A stretch of 64,000 bases of DNA from Sulfuriferula multivorans (lineage in GTDB: Bacteria; Pseudomonadota; Gammaproteobacteria; Burkholderiales; Sulfuriferulaceae), in the NCBI RefSeq assembly GCF_003851125.1, contig NZ_BGOW01000020.1, forward strand, positions 62,001-126,000, in the 5' to 3' direction. The notes beneath the pieces were generated by a model. That model did not search any database. It was not told where the DNA came from and was given only the letters and a program-made list of their open reading frames with translations. Made by a program: the position numbers and the translations under genes. Positions 10,987 to 20,256 of the stretch are shown here, one piece after another; position 1 is the first letter of the stretch, and every line of letters starts with the position of its first letter.

Positions 10987-11024
10987 TTTCAGTAATCTGT
11001 TTTAATCCATAGGTGTATTTGATA

Positions 11025-12194
11025 ATGCGGAAGTTTTGGCTAGTTTTTGCTCAGAGCACCACCATCGCGCTCGGCGTGCTTTTTGTAGTCGTTATTTTCA
11101 GGTCTGACTGGCTCACCTGGCGTAACGTAAATAATGGCCCGGGAATCACCATTCGCGAAGTAGCGGCGCCGAGCAGTGGCGGCGCACAGATCGATTCGTT
11201 AAGTGCGGCAGCCAAAAAAGCCATTCCATCTGTGGTGAATGTTTTTACCAGCAAGGAAGTGCGTTTACCCCGTAATCCACTGGCTGACGACCCCGTCTTC
11301 AAACGTTTTTTTGGCGACCACCCCACATCACGTTCGCAGCGAGTCAACAATCTCGGCTCGGGTGTTATCGTCAGCTCGGATGGTTATATCCTTACCAATC
11401 ATCACGTTGTCGAAGCTGCGGATGAAATTCAGGTTGCGCTGCATGACGGACGTACGGTACTTGCCAAGGTAGTGGGCTCTGATCCAGAGACTGATCTTGC
11501 GGTCCTCAAGGTCAATCTTACCGGATTGCCTGCCATCAGTTTCGCCCAGCCGGATAAAGGCAATGTCGGCGATTTTGTATTGGCTATTGGTGATCCGTTC
11601 GGTGTCGGTCAGACTGTCACGATGGGTATTATCAGTGCGCTCGAACGCACGCACCTTGGCATCAATACTTTTGAAAACTTCATCCAGACTGACGCCGCCA
11701 TCAACCCCGGCAATTCAGGTGGCGCGCTGGTCAATGCGCAAGGCAATCTTATTGGTATCAATAGTGCTATCTATACACGTACCGGCGGCTCACAAGGTAT
11801 CGGTTTTGCCATTCCGGTCAGTCTGGTTGTCCAGATCATGGACCAGATTATCAAACATGGATCTGTGACGCGCGGCTGGATCGGGGTTGAAGTCCAGGAT
11901 TTGACGCCAGAACTGGCCGAATCATTCAAATTGCCAAGCACCGATGGCGCGCTTATCGCCGGGATACTCAAAGGCGGCCCTGCAGATTTGGCGGGTATCA
12001 AACCAGGGGATGTCTTGATTGACGTCAACGGCAAACCTGTAAAGGATTCCACTTCACTGTTGCAATTGATTGCGGCGCAAACGCCTGGTCAAACGGCTCA
12101 ATTGAAACTGCTGCGCAAGACGAAAGAAATCGTTGCCACAGTCAATATCAACAAGCGCCCCAAAATCGAGCAACCTGTCGATGATGAGCAATAG
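11025..12194 (+). CDS. membrane-anchored trypsin-like serine protease with one PDZ domain (DegS/AlgW type)
   Basis: A 389-residue HtrA-family protease. An N-terminal membrane anchor (FWLVFAQSTTIALGVLFVVVIF) is followed by the protease domain. The catalytic triad is visible as ILTNHHVVEA (His), DPETDLAVLKV (Asp) and NPGNSGGALVN (Ser). A single PDZ domain follows (GWIGVEVQDLTPELAESF to about residue 375). One PDZ plus an uncleaved anchor is the DegS/AlgW arrangement, which senses misfolded outer membrane proteins and cleaves an anti-sigma factor such as RseA. No rseA-type gene lies nearby. An in-frame GTG at 11013 is an alternative start; the ATG was preferred. Confidence 0.85.
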   Translation: MRKFWLVFAQSTTIALGVLFVVVIFRSDWLTWRNVNNGPGITIREVAAPSSGGAQIDSLSAAAKKAIPSVVNVFTSKEVRLPRNPLADDPVFKRFFGDHPTSRSQRVNNLGSGVIVSSDGYILTNHHVVEAADEIQVALHDGRTVLAKVVGSDPETDLAVLKVNLTGLPAISFAQPDKGNVGDFVLAIGDPFGVGQTVTMGIISALERTHLGINTFENFIQTDAAINPGNSGGALVNAQGNLIGINSAIYTRTGGSQGIGFAIPVSLVVQIMDQIIKHGSVTRGWIGVEVQDLTPELAESFKLPSTDGALIAGILKGGPADLAGIKPGDVLIDVNGKPVKDSTSLLQLIAAQTPGQTAQLKLLRKTKEIVATVNINKRPKIEQPVDDEQ

Positions 12195-14719: not shown

Positions 14720-15448
14720 TTAAACCTTGATATAGGTCCAACCATGCTGCAGACGGTTGATGATTTCTCCAACGGCGGTCGGTGCAACACGGGTCTCGGG
14801 AAGCAATTTGACTTTAACGCCCTCTTTACTCAAGCGGCGCATGGTTTGTCCGCAAGCAACAAAACTGATGTTGGTATGCTGACGCGCAAGCTTCTCGATT
14901 CGAGCGGCATAGGGAGTGGCGTCGGCACGCAAAAGGTCGAGGCCATAACTATTGGCAATCACTTCGACCTGAACAGGCTGCCCAATAATTCTCTCGTGCT
15001 GAAGCAGATAGTCCACATCATCCAGCAAAGTTTTTAATTTGACTGGCTGATCAGAATCTACGTGCAAAACAATTTTTCGGGTGTCTGCCTTGATGCCCGC
15101 CAAGCTGACCGGGCGCTGCATTCCGGCCTGATTCAGGGCGGGTTGTGCTGGTCGCTGTGGATTATTCCAGTCGCGCCCAAACCAGCCTATGGCAAGCCCT
15201 AACACAAGCACCATGCCAGTTGCCAAATAGTGCGATGCACCAAATTGGCGTGCCCTGTTTTTCTGGTATGCGGGAGGCGGTTCTGCATAACCGTGACTGA
15301 CCATTTCCTTGACGGCACGTAATGCACATAGCTGGTGAGCGAGTTCCGGATCCTTCTCCAACGCAACAAACAGCCTATCTTTTTCAACCAGATCCAGTTC
15401 GCCGTCAATAAACGCATTCAATTGCTCCTGGGAGATTTCCGGCTTCAT
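14720..15448 (-). CDS. anti-sigma factor with periplasmic DsrE-like sensor domain
   Basis: A 242-residue membrane protein. Residues 1-50 resemble an anti-sigma domain (EQLNAFIDGELD ... ALEKDPELAHQL) but lack the HxxxCxxC zinc motif. One transmembrane helix lies at about 74-91. Residues 125-242 look like a DsrE/DsrF-family domain, with the conserved cysteine (Cys199) in SFVACGQTM and the C-terminal ending HGWTYIKV. The two exported proteins encoded divergently, at 16210 and 16765, share the same Cys context and ending. Its start overlaps the sigma gene stop (ATGA). I infer that the cytoplasmic part holds the ECF sigma factor and that the periplasmic DsrE-like part senses a sulfur or redox signal, or a partner protein; this is not a described function. 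Confidence 0.7.
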   Translation of the reverse strand: MKPEISQEQLNAFIDGELDLVEKDRLFVALEKDPELAHQLCALRAVKEMVSHGYAEPPPAYQKNRARQFGASHYLATGMVLVLGLAIGWFGRDWNNPQRPAQPALNQAGMQRPVSLAGIKADTRKIVLHVDSDQPVKLKTLLDDVDYLLQHERIIGQPVQVEVIANSYGLDLLRADATPYAARIEKLARQHTNISFVACGQTMRRLSKEGVKVKLLPETRVAPTAVGEIINRLQHGWTYIKV

Positions 15449-15999
15449 TTTACGCTCCTCAGCGTCCCCGTTTTTATCTGGGGTGACAACTCAACCAGTT
15501 TCGCTTTCAAGGACTGGCGTCCACGGCATAAGCGACTCATCACTGTACCTACCGGAATTTCAAGGATTTCGGCCACCTGGTTGTAGCTGAACCCTTCCAG
15601 ATCAATCAGCGTCAGAACTTGACGCTGGCCTATCGGCAATTGCGCAACCGCGGCGCGTACCCGATCAACTATCTGGCTACGTGAATGGATATGCTCGGGG
15701 GTTTCGTCATGGGCATAGTGATGGTCTTCCAGTTCGTCAACATCCTGAAAGGTTTTTTGACACCTGAAGCAATCGCGCCAGCAGTTATGCAAAATTTTGA
15801 ACAGCCAACTGTCAAGCTGAGCCGGGTCGCGCAACTGATGTAGCCGGGCCAATCCGCGAGTGAGCGCCTCTTGCACCAAATCATCGGCCAATGAACGATC
15901 ATGGCACCAGGAGTAGGCAACACGATATAAACGCGTGCGCCGTTCCTTGAGTTGAACGCGCAAACTTCCATCGCCAATCAGCAAAGATAATAAACTCAT
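15445..15999 (-). CDS. ECF-family RNA polymerase sigma factor
   Basis: A 184-residue sigma-70 family protein of the extracytoplasmic function group. Region 2 is visible as RTRLYRVAYSWCHDRSLADDLVQEAL ... QLDSWLFKILHNCWRDCFR. Region 4 follows as RAAVAQLPIGQRQVLTLIDLEGFSYNQVAEIL with the recognition helix IPVGTVMSRLCRGRQSLK. It is followed, with a 4-nt overlap, by the DsrE-type anti-sigma factor. The 210-nt divergent intergenic region toward the first DsrE-like gene contains a perfect inverted repeat and is the natural target for autoregulation. ECF factors usually act on their own promoter and a small regulon. Confidence 0.9.
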   Translation of the reverse strand: MSLLSLLIGDGSLRVQLKERRTRLYRVAYSWCHDRSLADDLVQEALTRGLARLHQLRDPAQLDSWLFKILHNCWRDCFRCQKTFQDVDELEDHHYAHDETPEHIHSRSQIVDRVRAAVAQLPIGQRQVLTLIDLEGFSYNQVAEILEIPVGTVMSRLCRGRQSLKAKLVELSPQIKTGTLRSVK

Positions 16000-16080
16000 A
16001 CCCTGAAAAGACCAGTAATGTTTGTATTGAAGTGCTTCATAACTAAGTAGACGTTGGATCCTATCAATCTATTCCATTCC

Positions 16081-16111
16081 AGAAATATTCCTTTTGCCAT
16101 GGAATATTTCT
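16081..16111. repeat. 11-bp perfect inverted repeat between sigma factor and DsrE-like gene
   Basis: The arms AGAAATATTCC and GGAATATTTCT are perfect reverse complements separated by 9 nt. The repeat lies midway between the divergent starts at 15999 and 16210. A site this regular could be a repressor operator, or a hairpin in either leader. GGAAT in the right arm also recalls ECF -35 elements. Confidence 0.6.
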
Positions 16112-16209
16112 ATAGTGCAATTTGTCTATATTAGGCCATATAGCAAAGATGTATGATTGCTCGTATCAATCATTAATGCTTTTAGAACAAAATAAAAAAG
16201 GAGTTGGAG

Positions 16210-16620
16210 ATGAAGAAAGTCATATTTGCACTGCTGCTGTTTTTTGGTCTGAGTAATGCGCTATTTGCACATGACGGCCCTGTTTCCGAAGGGGTAGTGG
16301 TCCAGGCAAATGGCAATGATGCCGCCGATTTCAAACGTGCCCTGATACTCGCCTCCAACATGCATGAAGTCCTGACCAAGGCAAAATTCGAGATTGTGGT
16401 CTATGGGCCCAGCGTGAAACTCCTTACTGCTTTTAGCAACGAGGTGCCGCTAATCCAGAAAGTACAAAGCGAAGGAATTAAAGTTATTGCCTGCGGAAGA
16501 TCCCTCAAGTCAGAACACTTGAAGGATAGTGATTTGGCACCTAACATCACCGTGGTACCATTTGGCGCCGTCCATATTGTAAACAGACAAAAACAGGGGT
16601 GGCAGTATATCAAGCCCTAG
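16210..16620 (+). CDS. exported DsrE-family protein
   Basis: A 136-residue periplasmic protein. The signal peptide is MKKVIFALLLFFGLSNALFA with cleavage before HDG. The mature part is one DsrE/DsrF-like domain: VVVQANGNDAADFKRALILASNM, EIVVYGPSVKLL, then the conserved Cys95 in KVIACGRSL and the C-terminal motif QGWQYIKP. The ATG at 16210 is preferred because AAGGAG lies 6 nt upstream; the TTG at 16204 overlaps that site. DsrE proteins carry sulfur as persulfide or bind small molecules; this exported group has no firmly assigned function. It shares its ending and Cys context with the anti-sigma factor at 14720-15448 and with the next gene. Confidence 0.8.
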   Translation: MKKVIFALLLFFGLSNALFAHDGPVSEGVVVQANGNDAADFKRALILASNMHEVLTKAKFEIVVYGPSVKLLTAFSNEVPLIQKVQSEGIKVIACGRSLKSEHLKDSDLAPNITVVPFGAVHIVNRQKQGWQYIKP

Positions 16621-16764
16621 CAACAAGCATGCGTCTTCTACTCGATCCAAAATCAGCAAAAGACTGAGTGAGACACGCATTCAGTAGCACGAGGCAACAC
16701 ATCGCAGTCGAAACAGGGATATCCCCATTTGCAATATTAACCTGACATATCGAAAGGCACCGCA

Positions 16765-17250
16765 ATGAACTTGAATAAAGTGAAAATCGCCCTATTCGCA
16801 ACCACGCTGTTTTTCTCCTTGGGCGCTGGCGCTACTCAGTCCCTTCTGCAAGGATATTCCTATGATCACCCGAAACTCATACATGACCTGCCTTTCGCCA
16901 AGCACCATGCTGTACTGCAGGTAAGCCAGGATGATCCTGAATTATGGAATCTGACACTGAACAATGCCACCAACATGCTCCAATATTTCGGCGAGGATAA
17001 AGTACAGATCGTTGTCGTGGCTTACGGTCCTGGTCTTAAAATGCTGTTGAAGGACTCCCCGGTAGCCAAGCGCCTGCAGACCCTTGATGCACAAGGTGTG
17101 GAATTTGATGCCTGCAATGTCACCTTGCAAGGTATGGCAAAAAAATTGGGACATGTTCCTGAATTGGCTCCGGAATCAGTGATCGTCCCAGGCGGCATCA
17201 TTCGAATCATGCAACTCCAGCAGCATGGCTACAACTATATCAAGCCTTGA
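16765..17250 (+). CDS. second exported DsrE-family protein
   Basis: A 161-residue protein paralogous to the one 145 nt upstream. It has a signal peptide (KIALFATTLFFSLGAGA) and a longer N-terminal mature stretch (TQSLLQGYSYDHPKL). The DsrE-like domain follows: VLQVSQDDPELWNLTLNN, QIVVVAYGPGLKMLL, then Cys117 in EFDACNVTL and the tail QQHGYNYIKP. A Shine-Dalgarno sequence (AAAGG) precedes the ATG. With the divergent sigma/anti-sigma pair it makes a locus with three DsrE-like domains on the outside of the membrane. It may be a ligand or client of the anti-sigma sensor domain, or a target of the ECF regulon; this is inference. Confidence 0.8.
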   Translation: MNLNKVKIALFATTLFFSLGAGATQSLLQGYSYDHPKLIHDLPFAKHHAVLQVSQDDPELWNLTLNNATNMLQYFGEDKVQIVVVAYGPGLKMLLKDSPVAKRLQTLDAQGVEFDACNVTLQGMAKKLGHVPELAPESVIVPGGIIRIMQLQQHGYNYIKP

Positions 17251-18080: not shown

Positions 18081-19538
18081 ATGAACAATAATACATTCAT
18101 AGACATACCAGACCCTCGTTGGCTGCCCATTCTCATGAATGGCTCGCTCAGCGAGATTTATGTAATGGATTGTGACACGCTGTATTTGGTTCACGCAAAT
18201 GACGCCGCATATCTCAATCTACAGTACTGTGCCGCTGAATTGGCAGGCATGACCATGCTTAATGTAACCCGCGGCCTATCTGAAAAAAAGCTGACCGAAG
18301 CATTACAGCCCTTGCGTACAAGCAATGCTGAATACGTCCCGCTTGAGTTAACACTGGTACGCCGCGATGGTACTACCTACCCCATCAGTTTTCGAGTGTT
18401 TCTATCGCATTCGATGATTATTGCGATTGGCAATGACCAGACTGCCTCAATTGCCTCTGCCCAGGCTTTGGGACTAAGCGAATCGCGCTTTCGTGCAATC
18501 GTGTCAAACATGCCTGGCCTGGTTTATCAGTTCGTGCGCCAACACAATGGAGAAATTTCTTTTCCTTATCTCAGCGACGGCTGTCACGCGCTGCTTGGCG
18601 TTACTCCCAGTCAGTTACGTAGTGATCCCACGCTATTTGCCGATTTGATTCTGCCGGAAGATATGCCTTCCTACATTGATTCAATGATGGCTTCGGCACG
18701 CACCCTTTCAGCGTGGAACTGGGAGGGCAGAATCTGGATTGAAAAATGGAAGGACACCAAATGGATCAACTTGCGAGCCACTCCCCGCACCATCGATCAG
18801 TCGCATGAACGCCCAGGCGTTGCATGGGATGGCGTAATGACCAATATCACTCAAAGCAGACTGGAAAAACACGAAATCCGCAGTTCCCGAGAACAACTTG
18901 CCGAATTGTCTGCACATATCGAACTGGTCAAGGAACAGGAACGCACTCGTATCGCCCGCGAAATTCATGATGATCTGGGCGGCAACCTGACTGCCATTAA
19001 AATGGCAATGGCTTTACTGATCCGGCGCCTGCCCGAGACGCCTGAATTGCTTGAAAAAGCCCATTACGTGGAGGCACTGGCGGATCGCAGTATAGAATCT
19101 GCGCATCGCATTGCAGCAGATTTGCGTCCCAGCGTGCTGGACTTTGGCATCGTAGCTGCGCTAGAGTGGCACGCCAAGGAGTTCGAGAAACAAGCTGGCA
19201 TACCCTGCAGTTTTTCTTCGAACTGCGAAGAAATTCAACTCGATCCTGACCAGGCTACAGCTCTGTTCCGGATTTTTCAGGAGGCCTTGACCAATATTGC
19301 CAAACACGCGCATGCCAGCCGAGTGACCGTCAAGCTCGCCTTGAGCAAACGCTGCGTTGACCTGGAAGTAGCCGATAATGGACGAGGCATCAACACAGCC
19401 GACCGAATGAAGCCGAAATCCTTTGGTATACGCGGCATGGTGGAACGTGCCAATGCACTGGGCGGGAAACTCCATATAAGTCCGATTGCTGCAGGCGGGA
19501 GTCTGGTACGCATCAAAATCCCGTTATCCACAACATGA
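18081..19538 (+). CDS. cytoplasmic PAS-domain histidine kinase, NarL-type system
   Basis: A 485-residue sensor kinase with no transmembrane segment. Two PAS-like domains lie at about residues 18-115 and 135-255 (FRAIVSNMPGLVYQFVR, YLSDGCHALLGVTPSQL). A HisKA_3 dimerisation domain follows, with the phospho-acceptor His296 in IAREIHDDLGGNLTAIKM. The HATPase domain shows the N box EALTNIAKHAHAS and the G box VADNGRGI. It pairs with the LuxR-type response regulator 70 nt downstream. The absence of a membrane anchor and the PAS domains point to a cytoplasmic signal such as redox, a ligand or light; the signal is not identifiable. Confidence 0.9.
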   Translation: MNNNTFIDIPDPRWLPILMNGSLSEIYVMDCDTLYLVHANDAAYLNLQYCAAELAGMTMLNVTRGLSEKKLTEALQPLRTSNAEYVPLELTLVRRDGTTYPISFRVFLSHSMIIAIGNDQTASIASAQALGLSESRFRAIVSNMPGLVYQFVRQHNGEISFPYLSDGCHALLGVTPSQLRSDPTLFADLILPEDMPSYIDSMMASARTLSAWNWEGRIWIEKWKDTKWINLRATPRTIDQSHERPGVAWDGVMTNITQSRLEKHEIRSSREQLAELSAHIELVKEQERTRIAREIHDDLGGNLTAIKMAMALLIRRLPETPELLEKAHYVEALADRSIESAHRIAADLRPSVLDFGIVAALEWHAKEFEKQAGIPCSFSSNCEEIQLDPDQATALFRIFQEALTNIAKHAHASRVTVKLALSKRCVDLEVADNGRGINTADRMKPKSFGIRGMVERANALGGKLHISPIAAGGSLVRIKIPLSTT

Positions 19539-19608
19539 GAGAATGCGGGATAATCTCAAAGAGAAAGAATCAACAGGATTTGACTTCGAGTACTAGCCAG
19601 GTAGCCTT

Positions 19609-20256
19609 ATGACAGTAACGAAAGCAATCAAGGTGTTTATCGCGGACGATCACGCAATCGTACGTGAAGGTTTGAAACAGATACTCGCCGACACCAAAGA
19701 CATCATCGTGGCAGGCGAGGCAGAAAACGGTCTGGATGCCATCCGGTCGACCCGAAAAAGCGGCTGTCATGTGCTGTTACTGGATATCTCCATGCCTGAC
19801 CGCAGCGGCATCGAAGTATTAAAGCAGATAAAAAAGGAATCCCCAGGTATTGCTGTGCTCATGTTATCCATGCACCGCGAGGATCAATACGCCATCCGCT
19901 CGCTCAAAGCCGGCGCATCGGGCTATCTCAATAAACAAAGCGCTCCTGCGGAACTGGTCAATGCCATCCGCCAGGTTGCTGCCGGTAAAAAATATATCAC
20001 TGCCGAACTCGCCCAGGAACTGGCGAATCACTTCGATGACGCACAGGAAACACCCCCGCACGAACTACTTTCCGATCGTGAATATCAGACTTTAACGATG
20101 ATCGCATCGGGCAAAACGGTCAGCGACATTGCGAATGAGCTAACGCTTTCAGTCAAGACGATCAGCATGTATCGTTCACGTTTATTATTAAAAATGAAAC
20201 TGCACAATAATGCCGAATTAACCCATTACGCCATCAAGAACCAGCTGGTAGAGTAA
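19609..20256 (+). CDS. NarL/FixJ-family response regulator
   Basis: A 215-residue response regulator. The receiver domain has the acidic pair in FIADDHAIVREG, the phospho-acceptor Asp59 in LLLDISMPDRSG, and the late Lys in GASGYLNKQSAP. The LuxR-type helix-turn-helix is at about residues 150-210 (LSDREYQTLTMIASGKTVSDIANELTLSVKTISMYRSRLL). It is cotranscribed with the PAS histidine kinase. The perfect inverted repeat 30 nt after its stop, in front of the next gene, is a candidate binding site for it or another regulator. Confidence 0.93.
   Translation: MTVTKAIKVFIADDHAIVREGLKQILADTKDIIVAGEAENGLDAIRSTRKSGCHVLLLDISMPDRSGIEVLKQIKKESPGIAVLMLSMHREDQYAIRSLKAGASGYLNKQSAPAELVNAIRQVAAGKKYITAELAQELANHFDDAQETPPHELLSDREYQTLTMIASGKTVSDIANELTLSVKTISMYRSRLLLKMKLHNNAELTHYAIKNQLVE

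Follow-up and report, generated by a model that had tools for sequence, protein, structure and literature searches.

A 64,000-nucleotide stretch of the Sulfuriferula multivorans genome (contig NZ_BGOW01000020.1, positions 62,001 to 126,000; hereafter the window) contains a divergent locus that joins an extracytoplasmic function (ECF) sigma factor and a putative transmembrane anti-sigma factor to two exported proteins of the DsrE family, and we propose that together they form a switch for reduced sulfur outside the cytoplasm. The ECF gene (15445..15999, minus strand) encodes 184 residues, with Sigma70_r4_2 (5.7e-17), Sigma70_r2 (9.4e-11) and TIGR02937, the sigma70-ECF superfamily model, matching over cut-off, and its stop is overlapped by 4 bases by the ATG of the anti-sigma gene (14720..15448, minus strand, 242 residues). 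Divergent from this pair stand E1 (16210..16620, plus strand, 136 residues; Pfam DsrE 7.3e-9), whose best start is the ATG at 16210 behind a GGAG, and E2 (16765..17250, plus strand, 161 residues; Pfam DsrE 2.4e-6), both above the gathering score. All four open reading frames lie where the initial annotation had placed them.

The anti-sigma protein divides into three parts, all encoded on the minus strand: a cytoplasmic helical domain predicted to bind the sigma factor (residues 1-60, 15269..15448; AlphaFold2 helices at 7-14, 20-32 and 34-55), a transmembrane helix (residues 69-95, 15164..15244; AlphaFold2 helix 72-95, hydropathy 1.63 over the 19 residues from 69) and a putative periplasmic sensor domain of DsrE type (residues 121-242, 14723..15088), delimited by profile comparison, AlphaFold2 and Foldseek. 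We followed this architecture through alignments of 84 anti-sigma proteins (A3), a set that omits the partial sequences at L123 and L124 as well as the protein of L042 and its duplicate L080, and 66 exported DsrE proteins (A4), comprising 47 of the 60 frames at non-duplicate loci and 19 from the window, the genus and paralogues in the window's own genome, with the proteins of L036 and L042 and 13 frames with odd starts, excessive length or fragmentation set aside. Across the anti-sigma family hydropathy points to a single transmembrane helix, reaching at least 1.6 in 59 of the 84 members and peaking at 1.21-1.59 in the other 25. AlphaFold2 applied to the same alignment modelled the C-terminal domain with a predicted local distance difference test score (pLDDT) of 90-98 by blocks and the linker at residues 96-110 with a score below 50.

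That the anti-sigma C-terminal domain is homologous to its two divergently encoded, exported neighbours, as the initial annotation had claimed from shared endings and cysteine context, is borne out well beyond chance. The domain is identical to E2 at 39 of 117 positions (33%), with a Smith-Waterman score of 130 against 27.7 +/- 4.9 for shuffled sequences, and scores 82 with E1 (shuffles 26.3 +/- 4.7); for each of the three pairs formed by the domain, E1 and E2, all 1000 shuffles scored lower than the actual sequences, and we accordingly rejected a chance similarity of the endings. Those endings read as reported, HGWTYIKV in the anti-sigma factor and QGWQYIKP and HGYNYIKP in the exported proteins, and the common cysteine context held in part, ACG being found in the anti-sigma factor and E1 and ACN in E2. 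DsrE is the top Pfam match of the anti-sigma C-terminus, below threshold (E 0.017, 15.7 vs 22.7 bits), and the model matches at E<=0.01 in 18 of the 84 anti-sigma members and in 60 of the 66 exported proteins, while hhalign aligned the two families over 118 columns with a probability of 99.8 (E 1.7e-27).

Structural comparison of the models indicates that the periplasmic domain is of DsrE-type fold. Foldseek on the AlphaFold2 model found MTH1491 (1l1s) as best match (E 1.1e-9, TM 0.89 on the target, rmsd 1.7), together with ST0148, two chains of DsrEFH (2hy5; A, at E 5.3e-5, and C) and a designed cage based on a DsrE-like protein. Profile searches of the PDB agree (1l1s at E 4.2e-33 for the exported family and E 2e-19 for the anti-sigma family), and the AlphaFold2 model of E2 has a mean pLDDT of 91. 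DsrEFH (2hy5), MTH1491 (1l1s) and ST0148 (2pd2) share the fold and a conserved cysteine, aligned for the latter two, and differ in being stand-alone proteins without fusion to a transmembrane regulator. DsrEFH and TusBCD complexes are hetero-oligomers of cytoplasmic subunits; unlike these subunits, the exported proteins have a hydrophobic N-terminus (65 of 66), and a transmembrane helix separates the anti-sigma domain from the cytoplasmic part of its protein.

Beyond residue 95, every one of the 84 anti-sigma proteins contains exactly one cysteine, always at position 199 (codon 14852..14854, minus strand), which is thus the sole periplasmic cysteine of the protein, and Trp237 is invariant as well (84/84). 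The exported proteins likewise contain exactly one cysteine from E2 residue 48 onwards, at position 117, in 66 of 66 cases, which corresponds to residue 95 of E1 as counted on the pairwise alignment; among the 13 exported frames outside the alignment, 11 have a cysteine 42-56 residues from the end, and those at L052:5014 and L090 have none there in the frame called. Because the periplasmic domain has a single cysteine, an internal disulfide is excluded and intramolecular disulfide sensing was rejected; a persulfide, a thiosulfonate or a mixed disulfide on this residue is possible.

The N-terminal domain, which we infer to bind the ECF sigma factor, resembles known anti-sigma domains weakly. 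Pfam zf-HC2 matches at E<=0.01 in 21 of the 84 proteins and RseA_N in 2, and comparison of the N-terminal family with MucA and RseA structures gave E 0.10-0.12 (MucA 6in7 at E 0.1, not significant), values similar to those of unrelated coiled chains; sigma binding therefore rests mainly on gene order. Both the gene order and the topology are those of transmembrane anti-sigma factors of the RseA/MucA class, with which the protein shares this weak N-terminal similarity and from which it differs in its periplasmic domain. Zinc anti-sigma factors carry an H-x3-C-x2-C zinc motif; Cys41 of the cytoplasmic domain is conserved in 79 of the 84 proteins and His52 in 45, and assignment to that class was rejected, as these proteins have no conserved histidine four residues before Cys41 and no conserved cysteine three residues after it.

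Among 18 genomes of the genus, 16 have a full-length relative; when the count is restricted to full-length matches, the order gives 44 of 349 genomes and the class 66 of 369, the class set having been picked by hand from listings. Since each genome search scored 7 or 8 candidates, these counts may be low. For gene neighbourhoods we used the best 80 of 109 confirmed stretches (the named loci), most of them metagenome-assembled, which include records of Sulfuriferula, Thiobacillus, Parasulfuritortus, Sulfurisoma, Hydrogenophilus, Gallionella, Thiogranum, Thiohalobacter, Halothiobacillus and Sedimenticola. Nine of the 80 are copies of genus contigs, which were kept in the 80-locus neighbour count and left out of the promoter analysis and of the analyses of the 71 non-duplicates. 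An ECF gene is present at all 16 genus loci and all 80 named loci.

In a tree of 150 DsrE domains, in which few columns and long branches meeting (the subject of a program warning) call for caution, the 84 anti-sigma domains all group on a single branch (100/99) that includes none of the 66 exported domains. This single, separate branch means that the domain was not copied from its local neighbours, and we rejected a recent origin of the domain by duplication of a neighbouring gene. The earlier suggestion that the anti-sigma factor was built from the exported proteins thus fails for the proteins encoded beside it and could hold at most in the remote past; the tree topology suggests one old fusion that has since been kept with an ECF gene. 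Apart from this question, the 3.62 Mb genome of the window's organism (G000) holds ten places related to E2, counting E2 itself, E1 and the anti-sigma domain, on contigs C1, C10, C17, C20, C38, C45 and C62, with one more on C2, an unusual number of which several are apparently exported. A second ECF gene stands 1.5 kb away from the closest paralogue of E2 (67% identity; G000:C38, L044:6566-9954); the 263-residue protein encoded after this ECF gene contains an H-x3-C-x2-C stretch and in this resembles zinc-type anti-sigma factors, and this is possibly a second, different sigma system near an exported DsrE gene.

The intergenic region carries a conserved promoter-like motif. When we looked for paired boxes in the 260 bases that precede the ECF gene, with no motif set beforehand, GGAAT-N17-CGTC emerged in 62 of 85 loci and, on the opposite strand, in 41 of 85, with at most 4 for any pattern in the shuffled control (three shuffles per strand). 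Written as GGAATA-N15/16-CGTC, the motif points towards the ECF gene in 77 of the 85 loci and in the opposite direction in 43; it has 114 sites in 71 loci, vs 0, 1, 1, 1, 1, 3 and 5 for seven altered patterns. Behind these 114 sites lie ECF genes (61), DsrE genes (30), genes for SoxX (3), SoxB (2), SoxY, YeeE and a porin (1 each) and other genes (5), with no called start in the remaining 10, and a divergent pair of motifs occurs in 14 of 17 loci from the order. The window has a predicted ECF promoter of the ecf-anti-sigma operon at 16049..16076 (minus strand; TGGAATAGAT...ACGTCT) and a predicted divergent promoter of E1, and perhaps E2, at 16100..16127 (plus strand; TGGAATATTT...TTGTCT), in which TGTC replaces CGTC; a pattern that admits both sites, set after they had been seen, matches nowhere else in the 3.62 Mb genome. 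With a stricter pattern, 20 genomes gave 48 matches vs 12 in the reversed control, 24 of the 48 lying at the ecf locus by hand count, and in genome G354 a DsrE-like match (88468-88821) is closely preceded by a site (C16:88952-88978), on a different contig from the ecf locus of that genome.

The linkage of ECF, DsrE-type anti-sigma and exported DsrE genes recurs well beyond the window, and in part of the family it extends to genes of thiosulfate oxidation. Naming each neighbour family from one representative, we found alongside the 80 ECF genes exported DsrE genes at 53 of the 80 named loci, Porin_O_P at 24, SoxY and SoxZ at 22 each, SoxB at 21, SoxA at 17, SoxX at 15 and YeeE/SoxT-like genes at 9, with at least one of SoxA, SoxY, SoxZ and SoxB at 24. 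At the 71 non-duplicate loci, sox genes were present in 19 and exported DsrE genes in 47, these being divergent and next to the ECF gene in 37, just downstream in 6 and elsewhere in 4, and absent from the other 24. Full-length matches occur in 34 genomes of the order that lie outside the genus, and of their loci we read 17, three of which (L173, L182 and L183) match named loci and are not independent; the genes run YeeE-soxYZ-ecf-anti-soxYZAXB in one direction at L171 and soxYZ-ecf-anti-soxAXB at L174, and stand divergent from soxYZAB at L172 and from YeeE-soxYZAXB at L173. A gene for a DsbC/DsbG-like disulfide isomerase adjoins ecf at 5 of the 80 loci (L104:113-865, L068, L087, L095 and L098); four of the five duplicate genus contigs, and in these four the anti-sigma gene has sox genes next to it.

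Co-occurrence across genomes agrees with this linkage. SoxB was found over cut-off in 160 of the 349 order genomes, in 43 of 44 with a full-length anti-sigma factor vs 117 of 305 without (42 and 118 if G332, with SoxB at E 1.7e-221 and the cut-off flag not shown, falls under the cut-off), G311 being the only order genome with the full-length protein and no SoxB; Fisher's test, which ignores kinship, gave 7.7e-14 counting 42 and 2.2e-15 counting 43. At class level SoxB was present in 52 of 66 genomes with the anti-sigma factor vs 70 of 303 without (Fisher 2.8e-17, kinship again ignored). In 12 of the 44 order genomes the best SoxB match lies no more than 4.5 kb from the anti-sigma gene.

We consider a switch made up of an ECF sigma factor and its anti-sigma factor, responding to reduced sulfur outside the cytoplasm, to be the best explanation of this locus, and on balance a probable one. 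Under this reading the anti-sigma factor would cross the inner membrane once and hold the ECF sigma factor with its cytoplasmic helices, inhibiting it, while the periplasmic DsrE-type domain would report, through its single invariant cysteine, loading with sulfane sulfur that could come from thiosulfate, SoxYZ-bound sulfur or polysulfide or be handed over by the exported DsrE proteins. Loading of Cys199, or a change of partners by the domain, would loosen the grip on the sigma factor, which, once freed, might use the back-to-back promoter pair to transcribe both the operon that encodes it and the divergent gene for an exported DsrE protein; among relatives, soxY, soxB, soxX or SoxT/YeeE genes are preceded by the same predicted promoter. 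The exported DsrE proteins are most likely single-cysteine sulfur carriers that also close a feedback loop. A more specific proposal, that the domain is a dedicated sulfane-sulfur sensor whose cysteine is loaded directly or by exported DsrE proteins in mixed oligomers, and that in many sulfur oxidisers among the beta- and gammaproteobacteria it is a main switch turning on thiosulfate oxidation in the periplasm, we advance tentatively, judging it slightly short of an even call.

Several observations weigh against a sulfur switch. The N-terminal family is weakly like MucA and RseA (E 0.10-0.12), and the window's anti-sigma factor falls short of the gathering scores that Pfam sets for the DsrE model and the two anti-sigma models. 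Neither DsrE nor sox genes lie nearby at 15 of the 71 non-duplicate loci, the contigs being short in some cases, and GlnE/GroEL genes flank 10 of the 80 loci. The anti-sigma factor occurs without SoxB in 14 of 66 class genomes, and 117 (or 118) of the 160 SoxB-positive order genomes have no anti-sigma factor; the association tests ignore kinship, and metagenome-assembled records are numerous. Across the whole genome of the window's organism the strict motif shows no enrichment (13 sites vs 10 in the reversed control), and no motif site was seen beside either soxB copy, one of which is at a contig end. The ten loci of the GlnE-like and/or GroEL subgroup are L081, L082, L083, L086, L088, L097, L107, L108, L116 and L125, nine of them without sox or exported DsrE genes nearby, L083 having a DsrE and a porin gene.

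The same motif counts led us to reject a large regulon in the window's organism. Among the 13 strict sites, two look regulatory by eye, the ecf site and one at C1:107799-107824, 80 bases before another exported DsrE gene; a further site at C1:128005 lies 23 bases before a 117-residue frame. Because regulatory-looking sites are few and none was seen beside soxB, the regulon looks small and, judged from the sites, appears to consist of the switch itself and exported DsrE genes. The second SoxB match of this genome (G000:C36:159406-161004) is without the first 27 profile positions, and in the stretch around it (L191) no other sox gene was recognised by the models used.

The alternative that fares best, possible in our judgement and on the doubtful side, is that the anti-sigma DsrE domain serves as a docking module for the exported DsrE proteins, which would bind it and carry the sensing cysteine as co-inhibitors or activators. 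DsrE proteins work as oligomers, and in other anti-sigma systems exported sensor partners act as co-inhibitors or activators; the clear homology of the partners, their genetic coupling by divergent promoter-like motifs and the conservation of the domain beyond its cysteine, as at Trp237, would all fit such an arrangement. The invariance of the anti-sigma domain's own cysteine argues against it, as does the absence of a nearby exported DsrE gene from 24 of 71 loci, where genes elsewhere in the genome may serve. We regard as improbable a sensor of thiol oxidants or disulfide stress, in which Cys199 and an exported partner would be linked by a mixed disulfide and the ligand would be something other than sulfur compounds: one cysteine on each side permits an intermolecular disulfide only, and the DsbC-like genes beside five loci, four of them from the window's genus, are compatible with it, but the sox linkage and co-occurrence point to sulfur oxidation and not to oxidant defence. 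Of the two signals raised in the initial annotation, sulfur/persulfide or thiol redox state, the former therefore gains circumstantial support and a general thiol or redox signal is less favoured. A sulfite-responsive pair like RpoE4 or SigE of Alphaproteobacteria, with the DsrE domain as a structural remnant, is very improbable, since, known as ECF/anti-sigma pairs controlling sulfite oxidation are, the invariant cysteine and high conservation argue against a remnant, and the known pairs, in the accessible parts of their descriptions, adjoin sulfite oxidase genes (PMC3511301, PMC6527743), whereas sox and exported DsrE genes stand here (sulfite oxidases were not searched for).

Two further features of the window lie outside the locus. 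About 2.5 kb from the anti-sigma gene, the gene at 11013-12194 appears to encode an HtrA/DegS-like protease anchored in the membrane, and frames resembling it occur in L029, L030 and L180; the gene encodes a candidate site-1 protease, making regulated proteolysis of the anti-sigma factor possible, and it also adjoins apparent cytochrome bc1 genes, so that the linkage may have other reasons. On the other side of the locus, profile search identified a PAS/HisKA_3 histidine kinase and a LuxR-type response regulator at 18081-20256, and frames resembling this pair adjoin L029 and L032 by reading, no search having been aimed at them.

Against the background of known systems, the proposed ECF/anti-sigma switch is of a known kind, with a putative DsrE-type sensor domain of a new type. 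The sulfite-oxidation pairs of Alphaproteobacteria, RpoE4 and RpoE1 of Sinorhizobium meliloti and SigE of Starkeya novella, of ECF26 type, likewise tie an ECF/anti-sigma pair to sulfur metabolism, with rpoE1 and rpoE4 autoregulated and sorT/sorA induced by sulfite and also on thiosulfate; they differ, in the portions of these papers available, in having COG5662-type anti-sigma factors for which no DsrE domain is mentioned and in targeting the sulfite oxidases sorT/sorAB, not sox or exported DsrE genes (PMC3511301, PMC6527743). Thiosulfate oxidation in Hyphomicrobium is, according to the parts of the reports at hand, under ArsR-type repressors, with SoxT1B as membrane signal unit (PMC11582611); SoxR/sHdrR and SoxT1B of Hyphomicrobium denitrificans resemble the proposed system in the control of thiosulfate oxidation genes by sulfane sulfur and in a YeeE-family SoxT, and differ in that the repressors are informed via a membrane protein (PMC11582611, PMC10451225, PMC12423496), whereas in the window the sensor candidate itself lies outside the membrane, joined to the anti-sigma factor. 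Precedent for a sulfur-carrying DsrE-family cysteine comes from DsrE3A of Metallosphaera cuprina, which carries a thiosulfonate and passes it on, as a stand-alone carrier paired with TusA and with no regulatory role described in the sections available (PMC4175335).

Among the matches listed in the literature searched, with preprints and most subscription papers outside it, we found no description of a DsrE-type anti-sigma factor. DsrE and sulfur are absent from the main text of a paper classifying class I anti-sigma factors (PMC7406223), and two genome papers with both "anti-sigma" and "sox cluster" draw no connection between them in the passages available. The known regulators of sulfur oxidation, among the matches listed and as excerpted there, are ArsR or CsoR repressors and two-component systems, and a 2024 study of sulfur oxidisers, in its abstract, calls "how regulators sense external sulfur" poorly understood (PMC11582611). 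If our interpretation is correct, the locus would encode a direct outside-to-inside sulfur sensor, with a named cysteine, a promoter motif and target genes, and would give exported DsrE proteins a role. It would thereby offer a testable answer to the question of how many sulfur-oxidising bacteria might sense sulfur outside the membrane.

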